IMG/VR virus record: IMGVR_UViG_3300021363_000014
Coordinates: 1 to 37,150 of that record
DNA length: 37,150 nucleotides
Source of the DNA: a virus
Strand: one strand, 5' to 3'
Part shown: piece by piece, positions 20,497 to 28,495 of the stretch
Layout of the letters: each line of letters begins with the position of its first letter
Numbering within the stretch: the stretch's first letter is position 1
The notes under the pieces: model-generated
Told to the model about the DNA's origin: nothing
Databases searched by the model: none
What the model saw: only the letters and a program-made list of their open reading frames with translations
Position numbers and translations under genes: made by a program

Positions 20497-22896
20497 TTAA
20501 ACATTACTTCGCCCTACTTTAATAACATGTAGATATATACCGCGTTCCGAGTCTCCATTTTGCAGTTTATATAATGTTTCAACTATTCCTATATTCTTTA
20601 AATCTTCGGCAAAGTGTTTACGAATTTGTATTTTAATCTCTGGTACATAACCGCCCTCTTCAGTCACGAGCCATTCCCGATATAAGCCATACATTTTCGA
20701 TATACTTATAAGTTCTATATCAAGTTTAGGGTTTTGTTTTTGTAATTTTTGTAACGCCGTAAACTTATTACTTTTTTCCTCGCTTACTTTAGGTACAATG
20801 TATCGTGACCTAAACCACAGTATTGCATCTTTATCCCGCATATGAAAGTCCTCAGTAGCTTTGCGCATTGCGTCTGTTATTTTAATTTGCCCGCCATTCT
20901 CGATTAGGTGTTTGATTCCAATATTTAGTATATGGTTAAAAATACCTGCTAGTTCATTGTCATATATCGCAGGCATTACAGCGTTATCTTTTTCCACCCT
21001 CACATCCATTGCAATAGTAATAAGACGGCGGGCAACAGCCGGATTAAAAACACTATAGCTAAATCTATTCATAGCAATAAGCAATCTGCCATAATTTTTT
21101 ACAGGCCTCCTTGTTACGTGCATCTGCCATCCTGGTAACGGCTCTTGTGCTGCGACCTTTAATAACATCTCTAATTTTTGAAATGGTTGAGAGTCAAAAT
21201 CGTATGCAAGTAATTTATTCTCCATCTGCATCGCTTGCGTTTGTGCCTCTGCCGTCCCACCGAATAATATACCCGCCGATACTGCGGCAGAATTTTCGAG
21301 CCCAATGACCCGGCGCGTGATTTCAATGAGCGACGATTTGCCCGTACTTGTATCGCCAACCAATAGCATAATGATATCTGCTCTATGCTTGGAAAGACAA
21401 GACGCCACAAATGCAAAGTAAGCTGTGTGTAACGTCTTGTCCGGTATCTGAGTGTTAATCCACTGGTCAAACTTAGGACAAAGCGCCGCCGGTTCGTAGC
21501 AGTACGGTAAAAGTGTAGTGAAATTATAGGACGACTCATGGTCAAGCAATTTACGTTTACCAGTCTTTATATTTACATGTAACACCCCGTTCTCAAGATT
21601 AATGAATACCCCGTCATGTAAATTACCCGTACGTGGTTCTAACGCATCCCGCATCGTTATTAACTTTAACTCCCGTATAGCCATATCCAAATACGGCAAC
21701 GTCCTGAGTAATTTACGGTAACGATCTTCCACGTCACTACGATCCACAAAATTATTAAGCAGGTCCACCACATATTTAGCGTTACGCTTAATCCAATGCG
21801 TCTGCTCAAAAATATAGAAGCTTGCCTGATCTATGCAGCATATTTCAACGTGTTGGAGGAACGCAGACACGAGCGTATGGACATGCTCGGGCATCCTTTC
21901 TTTCTTACTAAGCGTTAACTCAAACTCTTTAGAACTTGGTAAAGGGTGGGCCTTAAGCGTTGCCAAAGTGCTAAGATCGTTGAGACCGTTATCCGCGCAT
22001 ATTTTAAAAAACGTAGCGATAGTGATTTTACGATCACGCGGAGTCGCCTCGCCATTACAAAAGTTTTCATATTGTGTCTCTATTGTGTCTGCGTTATACT
22101 TAGGACTAAACTGGCTTAACCTGTTAAACATATCATAACCCTTCACACCGAATGCGTTTGCAAACGCTTTACCAATCTTAAACCATTCCGGGTTGTCACC
22201 CGTAATATCTAGTTCCTTATCCTCTAGTTGTTTAACGTATGCCTCGGCTTGGTCCCAGGTCTCTTGGTCGGCGGGGCCGTGTTGGCGAATTTTTTTTGGC
22301 TTAGAATTTTTTTCGGCCTTACGGTATGGCTGGAGAATGGAAATAAGCTGCGCGTGTTGTTTGGTGGTAAGCGGCTTAAGTTTTAATAAATCTCCGTGTT
22401 CAAGTTGGTACTTCTTAGAATTACTAAGGTAGCATGCAATAAACCGCTTCGAATAATATAGTTCGATCCAGTTAGCTCCACCTAGTCCCGTCCAATCCGG
22501 CTGATTGTCTTCACGTTTTTCGTAAAGGAAGTATATGTGATACCCATCCGATTTGGTTTTTTCTACTACGACATTGGCGGCCATTTTTTTAATAATGGAA
22601 TTTTTTAGCGCCAAAGTCTCTGCGGGCGTTACTTTCTTAGTATCCAAGTCAATGCAACATAGATTGCCATGCCCCAGGTAGAACCCGCAATGACTGCGTG
22701 ATAGGATCGACGCGCTAAAGGTAGAATGGTACACGGTTAGAAGTGGGTCAGCCATTTCTGCCGCGTACCCCCATTTAATCTTATTGGTCGGGTTTGGCTT
22801 ACGTTTCCATCCTATCGGGGCATTGGTGGCACGCGCCGCGCGCAGAATAACAAAGCCACGGTCGTATAGTTTTTTAATTTCTTGTTCGTTGGACAT
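20497..22896 (-). CDS. Primase-helicase (AEP-like primase, PriCT-2, SF3 helicase)
   Basis: A 799-residue replication protein. Residues 1-190 look like an archaeo-eukaryotic primase/polymerase domain: CIDLD (81-85) gives the acidic pair and SDGYHIYF (117-124) the catalytic His. Residues about 228-305 resemble a PriCT-2 domain (DNPEWFKIGKAFANAFG). Residues about 340-690 form a D5_N plus SF3 helicase: Walker A VGDTSTGKSS (513-522) and Walker B-like LLAYDFD (562-568). It initiates DNA synthesis and unwinds the template. Its ATG shares a base with the upstream stop (TAATG). The gene-free region with iteron-like repeats lies just behind it. Confidence 0.85.
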   Translation of the reverse strand: MSNEQEIKKLYDRGFVILRAARATNAPIGWKRKPNPTNKIKWGYAAEMADPLLTVYHSTFSASILSRSHCGFYLGHGNLCCIDLDTKKVTPAETLALKNSIIKKMAANVVVEKTKSDGYHIYFLYEKREDNQPDWTGLGGANWIELYYSKRFIACYLSNSKKYQLEHGDLLKLKPLTTKQHAQLISILQPYRKAEKNSKPKKIRQHGPADQETWDQAEAYVKQLEDKELDITGDNPEWFKIGKAFANAFGVKGYDMFNRLSQFSPKYNADTIETQYENFCNGEATPRDRKITIATFFKICADNGLNDLSTLATLKAHPLPSSKEFELTLSKKERMPEHVHTLVSAFLQHVEICCIDQASFYIFEQTHWIKRNAKYVVDLLNNFVDRSDVEDRYRKLLRTLPYLDMAIRELKLITMRDALEPRTGNLHDGVFINLENGVLHVNIKTGKRKLLDHESSYNFTTLLPYCYEPAALCPKFDQWINTQIPDKTLHTAYFAFVASCLSKHRADIIMLLVGDTSTGKSSLIEITRRVIGLENSAAVSAGILFGGTAEAQTQAMQMENKLLAYDFDSQPFQKLEMLLKVAAQEPLPGWQMHVTRRPVKNYGRLLIAMNRFSYSVFNPAVARRLITIAMDVRVEKDNAVMPAIYDNELAGIFNHILNIGIKHLIENGGQIKITDAMRKATEDFHMRDKDAILWFRSRYIVPKVSEEKSNKFTALQKLQKQNPKLDIELISISKMYGLYREWLVTEEGGYVPEIKIQIRKHFAEDLKNIGIVETLYKLQNGDSERGIYLHVIKVGRSNV

Positions 22897-23247: not shown

Positions 23248-23364
23248 TTAAGTTTTTTTATAGTTGGCTATTCTATCCGCAATCTCAATTTTCTTTAAAG
23301 CAGTATAGGCTTTTGATTTTTTAGGCGTGTATCCTAACGATTCAAGTGTATGGTCGTTACTCAA
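23248..23364 (-). CDS. Small 38-residue frame, non-ATG start, possibly a gene remnant
   Basis: In the 179-base gap upstream of the 111-residue gene, the minus strand has a frame reading NDHTLESLGYTPKKSKAYTA and KKIEIADRIANYKKT, with a codon-like composition. The only possible starts are TTG at 23364 or GTG at 23376, and an in-frame TAA lies just upstream. It may be a small gene with a rare start or the C-terminal remnant of a longer one. Confidence 0.3.
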   Translation of the reverse strand: MSNDHTLESLGYTPKKSKAYTALKKIEIADRIANYKKT

Positions 23365-23410
23365 TATTGCCCACACAGTCCGTTAACGTAGCATCGTTTT
23401 TGCCAAATTT

Positions 23411-23794
23411 TTATATAGCCTTTAATTTTTTCAACCATAGGTCTATTGTTTGTTGTGCCTCGTTATCTGCCTTTACTCTTTGTTGTTCACTAAGCAGGTG
23501 CCAAGCTTGCCGTGTAATATACTCGGGGCAACCAAGGGCAAAAGAGCAGGCGCAATGACCAAGAAAAGCACGTTTATTTATAGATGGATTGGTAAGACTA
23601 TTTAACATAGTGTTTGGCCACTGCTTTATAACAGCGCGCATTGCCGCCCCATATATCTTATGGTTGCCCATAAAAAGAATTGCCCTTTGAAGCATTACAG
23701 GCTCGTCTCTTTGCGGTAACGTGTGCCACATACCGTTTAGCCAATCTTCCCATTGCCAATAGGGTACCCAAACTTGTTTAATCCCGTTTCCCAT
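23411..23794 (-). CDS. Conserved phage protein with W-E-D-W-x-NGM motif
   Basis: A 127-residue protein starting MGNGIKQVWVPYWQWEDWLNGMW (key residues W9, W13, W16, N18-G19-M20). I recognise this N-terminal pattern from uncharacterised phage proteins found next to ParB-like genes; no activity is known. The remainder is helical with Cys residues at about 83-85 and 91. It overlaps the upstream ParB-like gene by 17 bases, so it belongs to the same operon. Confidence 0.65.
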   Translation of the reverse strand: MGNGIKQVWVPYWQWEDWLNGMWHTLPQRDEPVMLQRAILFMGNHKIYGAAMRAVIKQWPNTMLNSLTNPSINKRAFLGHCACSFALGCPEYITRQAWHLLSEQQRVKADNEAQQTIDLWLKKLKAI

Positions 23795-24317
23795 TTGATT
23801 TTTTTGAGTCCCAACTAGTGGAAAATTCCTGATTTAAAAACAAAGCGGCGAGGCCGGTAATCTGCTTAAGCCTTAGTAATTCGTCACGATCCATTCCTAT
23901 ATGCCTAAGTATCCAGGCATCGCTCATTCCAGCCTCGACAAGCTCGGCAACAATATTACTCATTAGTTCAATAGAGTGCGATCCCCTAGCCCTGTTATGG
24001 CGAATCGTAGAGGCCATACGATTTGACTCATCTTTATTAATAACGACCACGGGCAGCATACCGCCTTCTCTATCGAATATTCTTTTTGATGTTTGCATAA
24101 CGGTGTATCGATGGTAGCCGTCTACAATCTCATACACGTCCTCTTTTTTGAGATAATAACAAACTATCGGCATGGTAAAACCATCTTCCCATATACTGAG
24201 CTCTAGTAATTTCATTTCAGGTGGAGCAACCGAATTAGGATTATAGCTATTGGCCCTAAGCTTTTTGATTGAAACAGACTTAACATTATAAACTGGACTT
24301 GATAATGTATTTTTCAT
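23778..24317 (-). CDS. ParB-like / IbrB-like protein (second copy)
   Basis: A 179-residue protein with a ParB N-terminal-like fold: NSYNPNSVAPPEMKLLELSI (residues 23-42), then IVDGYHRYTVM (64-74), where G-x-H-R replaces the G-x-R-R of canonical ParB and resembles IbrB-type proteins. The C-terminal half has a helix-turn-helix-like region (MSDAWILRHIGMDRDELLRL). IbrB homologues accompany PAPS-reductase-like IbrA, and here the PP-loop gene is two genes upstream. ParB folds can bind CTP or act as nucleases. It overlaps its upstream neighbour as ATGA. Confidence 0.75.
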   Translation of the reverse strand: MKNTLSSPVYNVKSVSIKKLRANSYNPNSVAPPEMKLLELSIWEDGFTMPIVCYYLKKEDVYEIVDGYHRYTVMQTSKRIFDREGGMLPVVVINKDESNRMASTIRHNRARGSHSIELMSNIVAELVEAGMSDAWILRHIGMDRDELLRLKQITGLAALFLNQEFSTSWDSKKSNGKRD

Positions 24318-24862
24318 TTTGGGGTTGTTAATAAAAATATCGGTCTTTTGAAATTATTTTTTAAATGACTATCGCCGTAGCCTATAATTTTTCCTTTAGG
24401 TTTCCGGTAATTGGTTTTAGTTTTTACCATGGCTGAATCTTTGAGGGCTAATTCTAAGATGGTATTATTTCCTAAATTAGAAAATTCTTTTACCCATTCA
24501 TTAGAATCGCCGGGAAGATGGTGAAGAACCGATAGCGCGAGTACAACATCGAAATGGATTAGCTTTGTTAACGTTTTTAGATTAACTAACGAAAGTTTTT
24601 TATTAACAAAAAAGATATTAGGGTTATTTTTAACCAGGGTTTCACGCATTTCAAACTGATGGAACTCGAAAGACATAACGGTACATTGAAAATCTTCGGT
24701 AAGTCTCAGACCAAAGTAATTCATGTTTGCGCCTATGTCGCATACAGTGAATGGCTGCTTAAGTCGGCTACAAAAATTTTTAATTATTTCATACCTAGCA
24801 ACGCATTCTCTTACTCCTGTTTCTACCTTATTACCTTGTTGCCAAGAGTCCTGATATTTCAT
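24314..24862 (-). CDS. Class I SAM-dependent methyltransferase
   Basis: A 182-residue protein with a Rossmann methyltransferase core: motif I TVCDIGANMNYFGLRL (residues 39-54) and a post-I acidic end (SFEFH, about 64-68). The motif IV region reads FDVVLALSVLHHLPG, the form of small-molecule, RNA or protein methyltransferases, not the DPPY or NPPY of DNA amino-methyltransferases. The substrate is unknown. It overlaps both neighbours by 4 bases (ATGA), placing it inside the ParB/PP-loop cassette. It is shorter than usual methyltransferases at the C-terminus. Confidence 0.75.
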   Translation of the reverse strand: MKYQDSWQQGNKVETGVRECVARYEIIKNFCSRLKQPFTVCDIGANMNYFGLRLTEDFQCTVMSFEFHQFEMRETLVKNNPNIFFVNKKLSLVNLKTLTKLIHFDVVLALSVLHHLPGDSNEWVKEFSNLGNNTILELALKDSAMVKTKTNYRKPKGKIIGYGDSHLKNNFKRPIFLLTTPK

Positions 24863-26163
24863 TTTGCTGCTTTTAATTCAATATACTTTTCCAATCCCGC
24901 ATCTTTAAGTTTTCTTTTTTCCGATGTTCTAGAAACACTCATATAGGTTAGGCCCCAATCGTTTTTTAATATTGTTATACAAACCGCTTTCCACGAAGGG
25001 CAAATTCTAAAACTATGGGGGATATTTGTTTCATCGGGGATATCAGATTTAATTTTAATAATTTCGTACACATCGGGCTTGGTGCATAATTTGGAAATTT
25101 TTTTTGTATTCTCAATTTTTATTCCTTCGGCAATCATTTGTTTAATCACACGTGGGTTTCTCCCGTAACCTTTATTTTTCCAACTATCCCTAAGTCGGTT
25201 TAGATGGAAGAGAAATTTTTTTTTAGTATCCCCGGGTAACGTGCTAAGTAGAAATTCTGCGTATTCTTTCCAAGTAAAGTGTTTGGGTTTAGTAATTTTT
25301 CGCCAGCCCATTGCACTGGTACCTCCGTATATTCCGCCAAAGTTACAACCGTTAACGCGTCCTACCATCCTCCCCCAAGTATTAGGGTCAATTACCCTGT
25401 ATAATTTTAAGTTGTCTTGGCCACTTTGATGGAAAGGACTTGCGAGTCGCATCTGGTCAATGGTTAGACCGGCTTGGTAATATAGGTCGTAAGTTTTATT
25501 ATAATCAAATCCAAATTTTGCATTTGCTCTCCAAATATCCTCGGTTTGCCAATCGTATATAGGGTAAAAATTACATGTGCTTTTGTCGATTGTTTTAGAA
25601 TAAACTAAGCCCTTATGCATATATCGACGATGCTGCGAAGTAAATATAGCTCGGCGTGTTAAGGATTCTTCCGCTCGTATGCCAATGAGTACCGCGGTGC
25701 TTCCGTAGGTTTTGGAGAACCACTCAGCAAACCAGATACGGGTGTCGAAACCTTTTGTGTTTTTTACAAAATGGAAAGGACAGTTATCTTGATTAATTAC
25801 ATAATCGTATTCCGGCATTGATCTAACCCAAATATTTTTTTTCTTATCATCCCACGGAGTCCAACGAGTTTCGTACATAGATACCGAACAAGCTGCGGAG
25901 ATTGGTAAGCATAGCCAATATTTTTTATCAATCTTAATTTCTTTAAACATACGATCCGCGTACTCATGGGTAAATCGATGGTCTGCTTCGTAGTCTTCAT
26001 AATAAAAAGCGAGCTTATGGAGAAGCTTATTTTTAAGCGCGTATTGGTAAGCAAGATTTAGCAGTACGCCGCTATCTTTTCCGCATGAAAACGCAACTAA
26101 TACGTTATCGAAGTCTTTAAAAATTAATTTAAGTCTTTCGTTTGTCGCATTATATACGTTCAT
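24859..26163 (-). CDS. PAPS-reductase-like PP-loop protein (IbrA / DUF3440 type)
   Basis: A 434-residue protein. PP-loop FSCGKDSGV (residues 25-33) binds ATP; a second signature GIRAEES (161-167) and YPIYDWQTEDIW (200-211) match PAPS reductase / DndC-type adenylating enzymes. The C-terminal part (260-420, WGRMVGRVNGCNFGGIYG) matches DUF3440 as in IbrA. There is no CxxC pair for iron-sulfur binding in an obvious place. Such enzymes adenylate substrates to prepare them for sulfur transfer or reduction. The start is coupled to the upstream ParB-like gene (TAATG). Confidence 0.85.
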   Translation of the reverse strand: MNVYNATNERLKLIFKDFDNVLVAFSCGKDSGVLLNLAYQYALKNKLLHKLAFYYEDYEADHRFTHEYADRMFKEIKIDKKYWLCLPISAACSVSMYETRWTPWDDKKKNIWVRSMPEYDYVINQDNCPFHFVKNTKGFDTRIWFAEWFSKTYGSTAVLIGIRAEESLTRRAIFTSQHRRYMHKGLVYSKTIDKSTCNFYPIYDWQTEDIWRANAKFGFDYNKTYDLYYQAGLTIDQMRLASPFHQSGQDNLKLYRVIDPNTWGRMVGRVNGCNFGGIYGGTSAMGWRKITKPKHFTWKEYAEFLLSTLPGDTKKKFLFHLNRLRDSWKNKGYGRNPRVIKQMIAEGIKIENTKKISKLCTKPDVYEIIKIKSDIPDETNIPHSFRICPSWKAVCITILKNDWGLTYMSVSRTSEKRKLKDAGLEKYIELKAAK

Positions 26164-26768
26164 TATTTAATTGTTTTGATAGCCCGTAGAACGGTTTCGG
26201 TAGTAGACTTGGTTCTAAATTTTTTCATTAGTCGTTCCTCCACTATTCTAAAATCTTTCTCTTGCGCGGTTGTAAAAAGTAATTGTACAACCATTAAATC
26301 TTTCTTCGCTGGTTCAACTTCCACTATAGGTGGTTTTTTAGGTTCGTTACTCCGGGGTGTCTTATTCCCCATTTTATTTAAAAGTTTTTCAGGTACCACC
26401 ATACTGTAACGCTCTAAAAAATCTTTCGAGGTGCCGAGATCTCTTTCAATTTTTTTGATGTCCACATCTCCAGCGGTTGAATAGTCGAATATCGCTGACA
26501 TTTCCGTAAACTGTTTTTGACTTAGTTTACGATCTGGAACCGATACCCAAATTTTTTTCTCCTTCCTTGCTTTCATTTCTTCAAGCCTGGAATTGCCGTC
26601 AATAAGTGTGAGGTCTGTGTTGCAAACTATCGTACCTGCAAGGCCGAAATTTTTCAAGCTTTCTTTAAAACGCTCAGCGCCAAGTGCGTTTTTAATTTTG
26701 TAATTGACGGGCGTAGGTTTGATTTTGTTAATATCAACCAGTTTAGGTGACCATGTAATTGTATTCAT
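26163..26768 (-). CDS. ParB-like protein (first copy)
   Basis: A 201-residue protein. Residues 1-70 have a ParB/Srx-type fold: NKIKPTPVNYKIKN, GLAGTIVCN and LTLIDGNSRLEEM (the DGNSR replaces the GERR box). Residues 85-130 are helical; the tail (130-201) contains a Pro/Lys linker and a basic end (MKKFRTKSTTETVLRAIKTI). It heads the cassette with the PP-loop enzyme and is coupled to it (TAATG). It differs clearly from the second ParB-like protein, so this is not a recent duplication. Confidence 0.75.
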   Translation of the reverse strand: MNTITWSPKLVDINKIKPTPVNYKIKNALGAERFKESLKNFGLAGTIVCNTDLTLIDGNSRLEEMKARKEKKIWVSVPDRKLSQKQFTEMSAIFDYSTAGDVDIKKIERDLGTSKDFLERYSMVVPEKLLNKMGNKTPRSNEPKKPPIVEVEPAKKDLMVVQLLFTTAQEKDFRIVEERLMKKFRTKSTTETVLRAIKTIK

Positions 26769-26773
26769 ATTAT

Positions 26774-28495
26774 TTATTGTTTAAGTAAGTTGCTTGCAAT
26801 TCTAGGTTCTACGTTAATCAATCCTTTAATACCAGTGATATAGTCTGCGGTTTTTTCCATTACATCTTTAAGAATCGCGCTAGCTTTTTTGCCTAAGGTT
26901 TTTGGAACTTCTAGGATAATTTCGTCATGCCAGACAAAAACGATTGGTAACTCTTTGGGGATGGAAATCATTGCAAGCTTAACCATGTTTGCGCCCGCCG
27001 CCTGCACCGGATTATTTTTGCCTTGGTTCGCTACTTTCCATTCCTCATTCTCTTTTAATAATCTACGTCTGCGATAGGGATCGGCAGAGTAGCTAACTCC
27101 TGTTCTTACAGCCTGCTTTGCATTATTATTTAACCAACGGACCACAGACGGAATAGCCCGTTTATGTTGTTTAACGATAGCCGATGCAGTTTTTTCATCG
27201 TATCCGGTTTGCTCCATGAATTTATAAACGCCGCCACCATACGCAAGCATGAAGTTATTGATTTTTGCATCTTGCCGAAATTTAATATGTGCTTTGCATT
27301 GGCATTTTTTTGGAAACGTGCAGCCCTTTTCTTTCCCGGCAACCCACTTATCCCTAAATACTATACTAGCGGTAAGAGCGTGTATGTCGTCCTTTCGCAG
27401 CATAGCGTCAATCCAAATACGTTCGTTTGCCTTAGCCGCCATTATACCAATCTCCTGGCCGGAGTAGTCGCCAATAACAAACACATGACCTTTTTTCGGG
27501 ACAAAAGCTGATCGGTGTAGGCCTTCGGTTTTTAAACCATGTATGGGAGGATTGGAGACCGCGAAGCGTCCAGTACTTAATATTTGTTCCCAAGAGCAGC
27601 GTATACGATTATCCGTATCTACAGAATCAAGCCAGCTTAAGCCATATTTGGAAATTTGTGTGAATAATTCACGGGTTTCAATAAAGGTTCGTAACGTATT
27701 GTTATTGGTACGGGCGAGGGTATTCTGTAGATCGTCGAAGGAATTAATAAGTATTCCTTTAGAGAAGAAGTATTCTTTTACTTGCTTCGGACTGTTCCAA
27801 TTACCTACAGTCTTCGGAAGTTCCGTTAATAATTTATCGTACCTAGCCTGGTTATCTAAAGTAATTTTACGCCAGATATTTTTATCAAATCCCAAACCTA
27901 GAACTTTCATTTGTATCACACGTTCCACCACTTTGTTTTCCAGCAGCGCCACTTCTAGTTGCCCGTCCCGTGTTAGTAGAAACTCTTGTGCCTTTCTTAT
28001 AGGCAACAGCACCTCCGCATCGTACCCCGCATATTTAATTTCAGGTTTCGTAAATGCCAATCCTTTTGGTCGATCAATAAAATTGGTACGAATAGTTTTA
28101 TCTGTTTCCGGCAACCCGTAACGAGTTACCATATACTTTAAACTTGAGGAGTATTTTTTTAACTGTTCTTCGCGTTCGGGGGTTGGGGCACCCTTACTTC
28201 GCGATACGTTCAAACCGATAATAACCTGTTCACATAATTTTGTATCCCATATATTTTCAATCTTGATCCCGGTATTTAGTTCAATGTACGGACCGTCAAA
28301 TTCTGCCGACTGGATAACTTTACATATCGCCGGGTCTTCCAGTATATGCTTAATTTCATTAAAGTAGTTGGTTTTCCCAAAGCAGTTATGCCAAACTTTT
28401 ACTTTTTTACCATCGTAGTAACTAAGCATCCAAATAGTTCCATTATACGGATGCAATCCCGTGGTCTCTATATCTACAGCGGCATATTTTTGCAT
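26774..28495 (-). CDS. DNA polymerase, family A, with 3'-5' exonuclease
   Basis: A 573-residue replicative polymerase. Exonuclease: VDIETTG (residues 7-13, Asp8 and Glu10), later AEFDGPY (64-70) and YAGYDAEV (155-162, the Exo III region). Polymerase: motif A IGDYSGQEIG (341-350), motif B RQDAKINNFMLAYGGG (407-422) and motif C VWHDEIILEV (521-530). An insert just before motif B holds Cys392, Cys398, Cys400 and His403, which may bind a metal. It is shorter than bacterial Pol I, as is common in phages. It is the first minus-strand gene after the divergent control region. Confidence 0.9.
   Translation of the reverse strand: MQKYAAVDIETTGLHPYNGTIWMLSYYDGKKVKVWHNCFGKTNYFNEIKHILEDPAICKVIQSAEFDGPYIELNTGIKIENIWDTKLCEQVIIGLNVSRSKGAPTPEREEQLKKYSSSLKYMVTRYGLPETDKTIRTNFIDRPKGLAFTKPEIKYAGYDAEVLLPIRKAQEFLLTRDGQLEVALLENKVVERVIQMKVLGLGFDKNIWRKITLDNQARYDKLLTELPKTVGNWNSPKQVKEYFFSKGILINSFDDLQNTLARTNNNTLRTFIETRELFTQISKYGLSWLDSVDTDNRIRCSWEQILSTGRFAVSNPPIHGLKTEGLHRSAFVPKKGHVFVIGDYSGQEIGIMAAKANERIWIDAMLRKDDIHALTASIVFRDKWVAGKEKGCTFPKKCQCKAHIKFRQDAKINNFMLAYGGGVYKFMEQTGYDEKTASAIVKQHKRAIPSVVRWLNNNAKQAVRTGVSYSADPYRRRRLLKENEEWKVANQGKNNPVQAAGANMVKLAMISIPKELPIVFVWHDEIILEVPKTLGKKASAILKDVMEKTADYITGIKGLINVEPRIASNLLKQ

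Follow-up and report, generated by a model that had tools for sequence, protein, structure and literature searches.

Between positions 23411 and 26768 of IMG/VR virus record IMGVR_UViG_3300021363_000014 (37,150 bases, all of them analyzed and hereafter called the window), five coupled genes lying wholly on the minus strand make up a cassette that we read as a methyltransferase-bearing variant of the phage IbrA/IbrB module, extended by a third partner, P0001. We give a probability of about one half to the view that this cassette modifies a nucleic acid, probably DNA, with a small group, through adenylation by the PP-loop enzyme IbrA, delivery by the ParB-like protein IbrB and tailoring by accessory enzymes. 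The genes are coupled, the core recurs among relatives, and accessory enzymes are encoded in the same operon and partly fused to the ParB protein. The cassette and its surroundings are composed as follows.

26163..26768, minus strand: P0005, an orphan ParB-like protein of 201 residues that starts the coupled run (phrog_620, E=4.3e-8; phrog_498, E=5.9e-7).
24859..26163, minus strand: P0004, an IbrA-type PP-loop protein (PAPS_reduct plus DUF3440) of 434 residues, identified by family scans and motifs.
24314..24862, minus strand: P0003, a WbdD-type class I methyltransferase of 182 residues, between the PP-loop and ParB genes, identified by WbdD profile and fold match.
23778..24317, minus strand: P0002, an IbrB-type ParB-like protein of 179 residues, identified by phrog_2159 (E=2.4e-78) and conserved motifs.
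23411..23794, minus strand: P0001, an all-helical third partner of 127 residues and no known family, identified by linkage to the module and by ParB fusions.
23248..23438, minus strand: remnant of a small gene for a DUF3440 C-terminal domain, in pieces in two frames (23361-23438 and 23248-23382).
26774..28495, minus strand: DNA polymerase A, 5 bases upstream of the cassette (DNA_pol_A, E=5e-39).
20497..22896, minus strand: primase/helicase, downstream of the cassette (PriCT_2 and D5_N).

As can be seen from these coordinates, P0005 and P0004 have one base in common (TAATG), P0004/P0003 and P0003/P0002 each overlap by 4 bases (ATGA), and P0002 and P0001 overlap by 17 bases, exactly as an earlier reading made from the sequence only had described. 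That reading took the cassette for one coupled unit, which is borne out by the overlaps and by the order of PP-loop, methyltransferase and ParB genes, found again in three other distinct phages. Since this order recurs, the layout is not a product of chance.

The core of the cassette is clearly that of IbrA/IbrB. In a family scan, P0004 matches DUF3440 (E=2.6e-57; 194 bits against a cut-off of 25) and PAPS_reduct (E=6.6e-12), and its SFxGKDS, GIRxxES and YDWxxEDxW motifs are invariant or almost so in alignments of 26 and 212 relatives. P0002 is of the IbrB type, parted from the PP-loop gene by the methyltransferase alone, with NPNxVAPPEM, DGxHR and RHNRARGxH motifs that are conserved in 24 relatives. 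The ParB domain of the module resembles the ParB part of phage DNA methyltransferases (phrog_498, E=1.8e-12) and misses the models for partition proteins (scores of 25.8 against 26.3 for Pfam ParB_N, and 16.6 against 58.45 for TIGR00180). Relatives of P0004 were gathered as 59 viral loci by single-protein search, 80 genome loci by profile search and 215 matching phage records. The PP-loop and ParB genes adjoin in almost all loci (given as L numbers below) with sufficient sequence, and on a tree of PP-loop proteins the window cassette falls in a supported clade of P0001-carrying phages.

P0001, which had been noted as no more than a fifth gene with a 17-base overlap, keeps that overlap and loses its bystander status, being a recurrent third partner of the module. 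A search of viral contigs with a P0001 profile returned 80 loci, 77 of them new, and a PP-loop or ParB gene is on the contig in 76 of these 77; the remaining locus ends at a contig edge, yet retains the small DUF3440-C gene. Moreover, the ParB proteins of L044 and L055 are fusions with a C-terminal P0001 domain. The AlphaFold model of P0001 is helical and confident (predicted local distance difference test, pLDDT, 96), with no match in a fold search against the PDB and one good match among viral models, a nameless 116-residue protein. In most relatives P0001 is followed by an intact small gene copying the C-terminal domain of DUF3440. The window copy is split over two frames with about 17 codons of its middle gone, either by decay or through an assembly error, which are indistinguishable here. 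Small open reading frames upstream of the PP-loop gene, considered as split PP-loop genes, were rejected as such, being copies of this DUF3440 C-terminal domain that follow P0001.

Among the relatives the core stays constant while the accessory enzyme changes. Among 133 clusters formed at 90% PP-loop identity, from loci gathered by similarity to window proteins so that the shares are biased, 24 carry a cupin, 44 a GNAT, 2 a WbdD-type methyltransferase, and 63 lack all three. The cupin, which is encoded between the PP-loop and ParB genes or joined to the N terminus of ParB (in 4 of the 24 cupin clusters and in L251), matches ectoine synthase, EctC, with E=1e-32 to 1e-42, and its metal-site region is kept. 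In an alignment to solved ectoine synthases, the residues that we take to be the EctC metal ligands are kept, and the tryptophan presumed to bind the EctC substrate is not. The linkage is tight, since 79 of 80 phage loci found by the cupin alone have both PP-loop and ParB genes, and the lone exception has, in frame, the beginning of a ParB domain. In L251 (3932-5431) a single 499-residue protein combines an EctC-like cupin, a methyltransferase (phrog_21658) and ParB, with P0001 after it, while L168 (1301-5450) displays, in order, the PP-loop gene, an EctD-like hydroxylase (E=1.4e-55), a second methyltransferase, an EctC-like cupin, ParB and P0001. The latter contig thus contains an ectoine-pathway-like gene set in a phage. 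The second methyltransferase of L168 and L251 is unrelated to P0003.

In Bacteroidota loci a dedicated GNAT gene immediately precedes the PP-loop gene, and position and sequence checks on a sample of loci showed that these matches are real; in others the GNAT gene stands between the PP-loop and ParB genes. In many of the loci L078-L135, which come from Bacteroidota and other genomes, it overlaps the start of the IbrA-type gene, so that IbrAB is often a three-gene set there. PD-(D/E)XK nuclease genes beside the module in L002, L006 and L007 were considered as parts of it and rejected as replication-module neighbors, because their family and place vary. In Fusobacterium phage phiFN37 (L065:5283-9269), IbrA/IbrB genes share a region with one more ParB-like gene, after which comes an annotated queuine tRNA-ribosyltransferase.

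As for the methyltransferase, P0003 matches phrog_9361 (E=4.5e-19) and, under the Pfam cut-off, Methyltransf_12 (E=7e-4), and its best solved match is WbdD, both by profile (E=2e-5) and by fold (E=4e-8; template modeling score 0.64, from a low-confidence model with a pLDDT of 58). A methyltransferase between the PP-loop and ParB genes is found in at least four distinct phages, the window included, with homologues of P0003 in the same position in L003, L004/L005 and L008/L009 (55-57% identity). Identities above 50% to P0003 are confined to such phage cassette copies, and single-protein searches of viral contigs returned no close relatives of P0003 or of the DNA polymerase. For most genes of the window pairs the ratio of nonsynonymous to synonymous substitution rates was not computable since synonymous sites are saturated. 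The P0003 group has a proportion of nonsynonymous differences of 0.07-0.09 with synonymous sites near saturation, and is therefore under purifying selection. Its carriers form one clade on the PP-loop tree, so it was acquired once. The sequence-only reading had rightly called this arrangement less usual; it had also hinged on the methyltransferase keeping company with the PP-loop/ParB pair, and it does so in the three other phages, with an unrelated methyltransferase recruited independently and fused to ParB. Because accessory enzymes swap and this second methyltransferase was recruited, once within a cupin-methyltransferase-ParB fusion, methylation looks like a genuine tailoring step.

Outside the cassettes, homologues of P0003 in mycobacteriophages stand between an annotated kinase and glycosyltransferases. 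In L062 (3486-5210) and L069 (3510-5193), a kinase, a WbdD-type methyltransferase and a glycosyltransferase follow one another, near the major capsid gene in Baka, which looks like a split WbdD-type glycan-capping set.

The second, dissimilar ParB-like protein, P0005, is indeed present and coupled, as had been noted, but it is in no surveyed relative, and its membership in the system is unsupported. Its ParB likeness is weak, with the two phrog matches listed above (phrog_498 being the ParB part of DNA methyltransferases), no Pfam match and an hhalign probability of 1.8% against the IbrB set, and no relatives were found in viral contigs, phage records or the PDB.

The nature of the PP-loop chemistry was judged from cysteines and from the nearest known enzymes. 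Sulfur transfer would require a cysteine or a cluster. In an alignment of 212 PP-loop proteins, no position is a universal cysteine or has one in 95% of the sequences; the best, C85, is at 89% and is absent throughout one clade, so that these proteins have no conserved sulfur-carrying cysteine of the TtcA, ThiI or LarE type, and no invariant cysteine appears in the ParB or P0001 alignments. Similarity of P0004 to DndC is remote (PADLOC E=5.6e-8; TIGR03183 E=4.7e-6; 25.8 bits against a model cut-off of 290.4), as is that to LarE (19.5 against 150 bits); 3'-phosphoadenosine 5'-phosphosulfate reductase, CysH, scores 16.5 against 165.1 bits, and the C-terminal catalytic cysteine of that enzyme is lacking. 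Neither DndA, DndD nor DndE is among the seven cassette and flank proteins scanned, and none of the cassette proteins is a cysteine desulfurase. The best solved matches of P0004 are instead enzymes that transfer adenosine monophosphate (AMP), namely the sulfate adenylyltransferase CysD (E=2.5e-7) and flavin adenine dinucleotide synthase (E=2.7e-5). Adenylation without sulfur is preferred because of these matches together with the lack of a universal cysteine.

Nucleic-acid modification, the role proposed by the sequence-only reading, is the best reading of the cassette. We infer its chemistry and its target as follows. IbrA would activate the substrate by AMP transfer, and IbrB would bind DNA and a nucleoside triphosphate, bringing the substrate or the enzyme to DNA coming from the neighboring polymerase. 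A small group would then be installed and completed by the accessory enzyme, through ring closure by the cupin, acetylation by the GNAT, hydroxylation by the EctD homologue or, in the branch of the window, methyl capping by the WbdD-type enzyme. The outcome would be phage nucleic acid, most probably DNA, in a modified form that may shield the phage from host nucleases or alter phage gene expression. Three observations favor DNA as the target. The ParB domain is similar to the one in phage DNA methyltransferases; in the window and in relatives the module is surrounded by replication or recombination genes; and two known pathways of DNA modification come with ParB-like proteins: the ParB-like DpdB takes part in 7-deazaguanine insertion into DNA (PMC12839542), and ParBc proteins are found beside CmoX/CmoY DNA hypermodification (PMC12783734). 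A bolder version, which we hold only tentatively and consider rather unlikely, is that of a widespread phage hypermodification pathway for DNA or nucleotides, in which IbrA adenylates, IbrB and P0001 target DNA, and exchangeable finishers complete an attached amino-acid-like group, for instance through ring closure by the ectoine-synthase-like cupin or, in the window branch, through a WbdD-type methyl cap.

Several points weigh against the modification reading. About half of the clusters have no recognized accessory enzyme. The WbdD-type methyltransferase entered once, in one clade, and in that clade alone it may be a passenger. WbdD normally requires a partner kinase, and none for P0003 is found in the cassette or among the ten other window genes scanned. 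The adenylyltransferase match spans just the N-terminal 65-70 residues, the ParB-domain and replication-neighbor arguments for DNA are indirect, and substrate, product and activity are inferred from sequence.

Among the alternatives, the one that survives best, although we find it unlikely, is an RNA target, most likely transfer RNA (tRNA), in which the PP-loop enzyme would activate a base carbonyl like TilS or TtcA and the accessory enzymes would finish the base. Many PP-loop enzymes work on tRNA, and P0003 matches CmoB, which acts on the tRNA wobble position (E=6e-7), but at 28.6 bits against a cut-off of 209 this match is far below threshold, the ParB partner points to DNA, and the cassette proteins contain no RNA-binding domain. 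It is less probable still that IbrA and IbrB are transcription co-activators, as annotated, with accessory enzymes that merely adjust a regulatory protein or ligand. The names do derive from the activation of prophage eib genes in E. coli, work that is cited in PMC4541368; however, activation may be an effect of modification, and a regulator leaves the linked EctC, EctD, GNAT and methyltransferase enzymes unexplained. Just as improbable, in our view, is a methyltransferase that rides as a passenger in the clade of the window, outside the IbrA/IbrB pathway. Its single origin on the tree and the mycobacteriophage clusters with kinase and glycosyltransferases, where its closest described homologues reside, speak for this, but the ATGA coupling on both flanks, the order kept in four distinct phages, purifying selection and the independent recruitment and fusion of another methyltransferase speak against it. 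A soluble small molecule, ectoine-like or a modified nucleotide, that aids infection or blocks host defense is a poor candidate: EctC- and EctD-type enzymes do serve to make a compatible solute that is soluble, but the loci inspected at the level of single genes contain no EctB, EctC occurs in fusions with a ParB-type protein, and the core is constant while the accessory enzyme changes. Most doubtful of all is the original proposal of thiolation by the PP-loop enzyme, on DNA, RNA or a nucleotide, followed by methylation, since the remote similarity to DndC and LarE and the joint upregulation of ybdM/ybdN and cys genes in an E. coli ybdO deletion (PMC9068703) are set against the missing cysteines, the missing desulfurase and a DndC score far under its cut-off.

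IbrA/IbrB genes, found here and there in phages and prophages, are labeled as co-activators of prophage gene expression, a name that says nothing of their chemistry. The survey recasts them as a testable enzyme system with a fixed core for activation and targeting, a third partner of no known fold and exchangeable finishers, whose known reactions constrain the possible product. Since the cupin form is present in cultured phages, Mycobacterium phage Gaia and Pseudoalteromonas phage XCL1123 among them, this product can be searched for directly. A novel modification of phage nucleic acid, if real, would matter for anti-restriction, sequencing artifacts and enzyme discovery. The kind is already known by name, although poorly understood; a form with a methyltransferase, P0001 and exchangeable tailoring enzymes is not described in the literature searched, which was mostly without subscription journals and partly at less than full text, and the papers found likewise describe no such additions to IbrAB.

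Compared with known systems, the cassette shares single elements with several. WbdD, the O-antigen terminator of E. coli O9a, methylates the phosphate that its own kinase domain produces (PMC3482155), and its methyltransferase domain is the best profile and fold match of P0003; P0003, in contrast, has neither a kinase domain nor a kinase neighbor, and there are no glycan genes in the cassette. Dnd/Ssp phosphorothioation has in DndC a remotely similar member of the PP-loop superfamily and in DndB a ParB-superfamily protein, whereas the cassette is without conserved cysteines and without DndA, DndD and DndE, and its scores are far under the cut-offs. In the DpdA/DpdB system a ParB-like ATPase serves to insert an unusual base into DNA (PMC12839542), but the cassette has no tRNA-guanine transglycosylase homologue and its core enzyme is a PP-loop protein. 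CmoX/CmoY is comparable as a two-step modification of phage DNA (at cytosine) with ParBc neighbors and an AMP-forming step (PMC12783734), although the enzyme families are different and the cassette has no CmoX-like DNA cytosine enzyme. The closest likeness is to IbrA/IbrB (YbdN/YbdM) itself, in which the same two families, a DUF3440 PP-loop protein and a ParB-like protein, are adjacent and coupled; to this pair the cassette adds a methyltransferase in between, P0001 and an extra ParB-like protein, and its relatives add a cupin, a GNAT, EctD or another methyltransferase.

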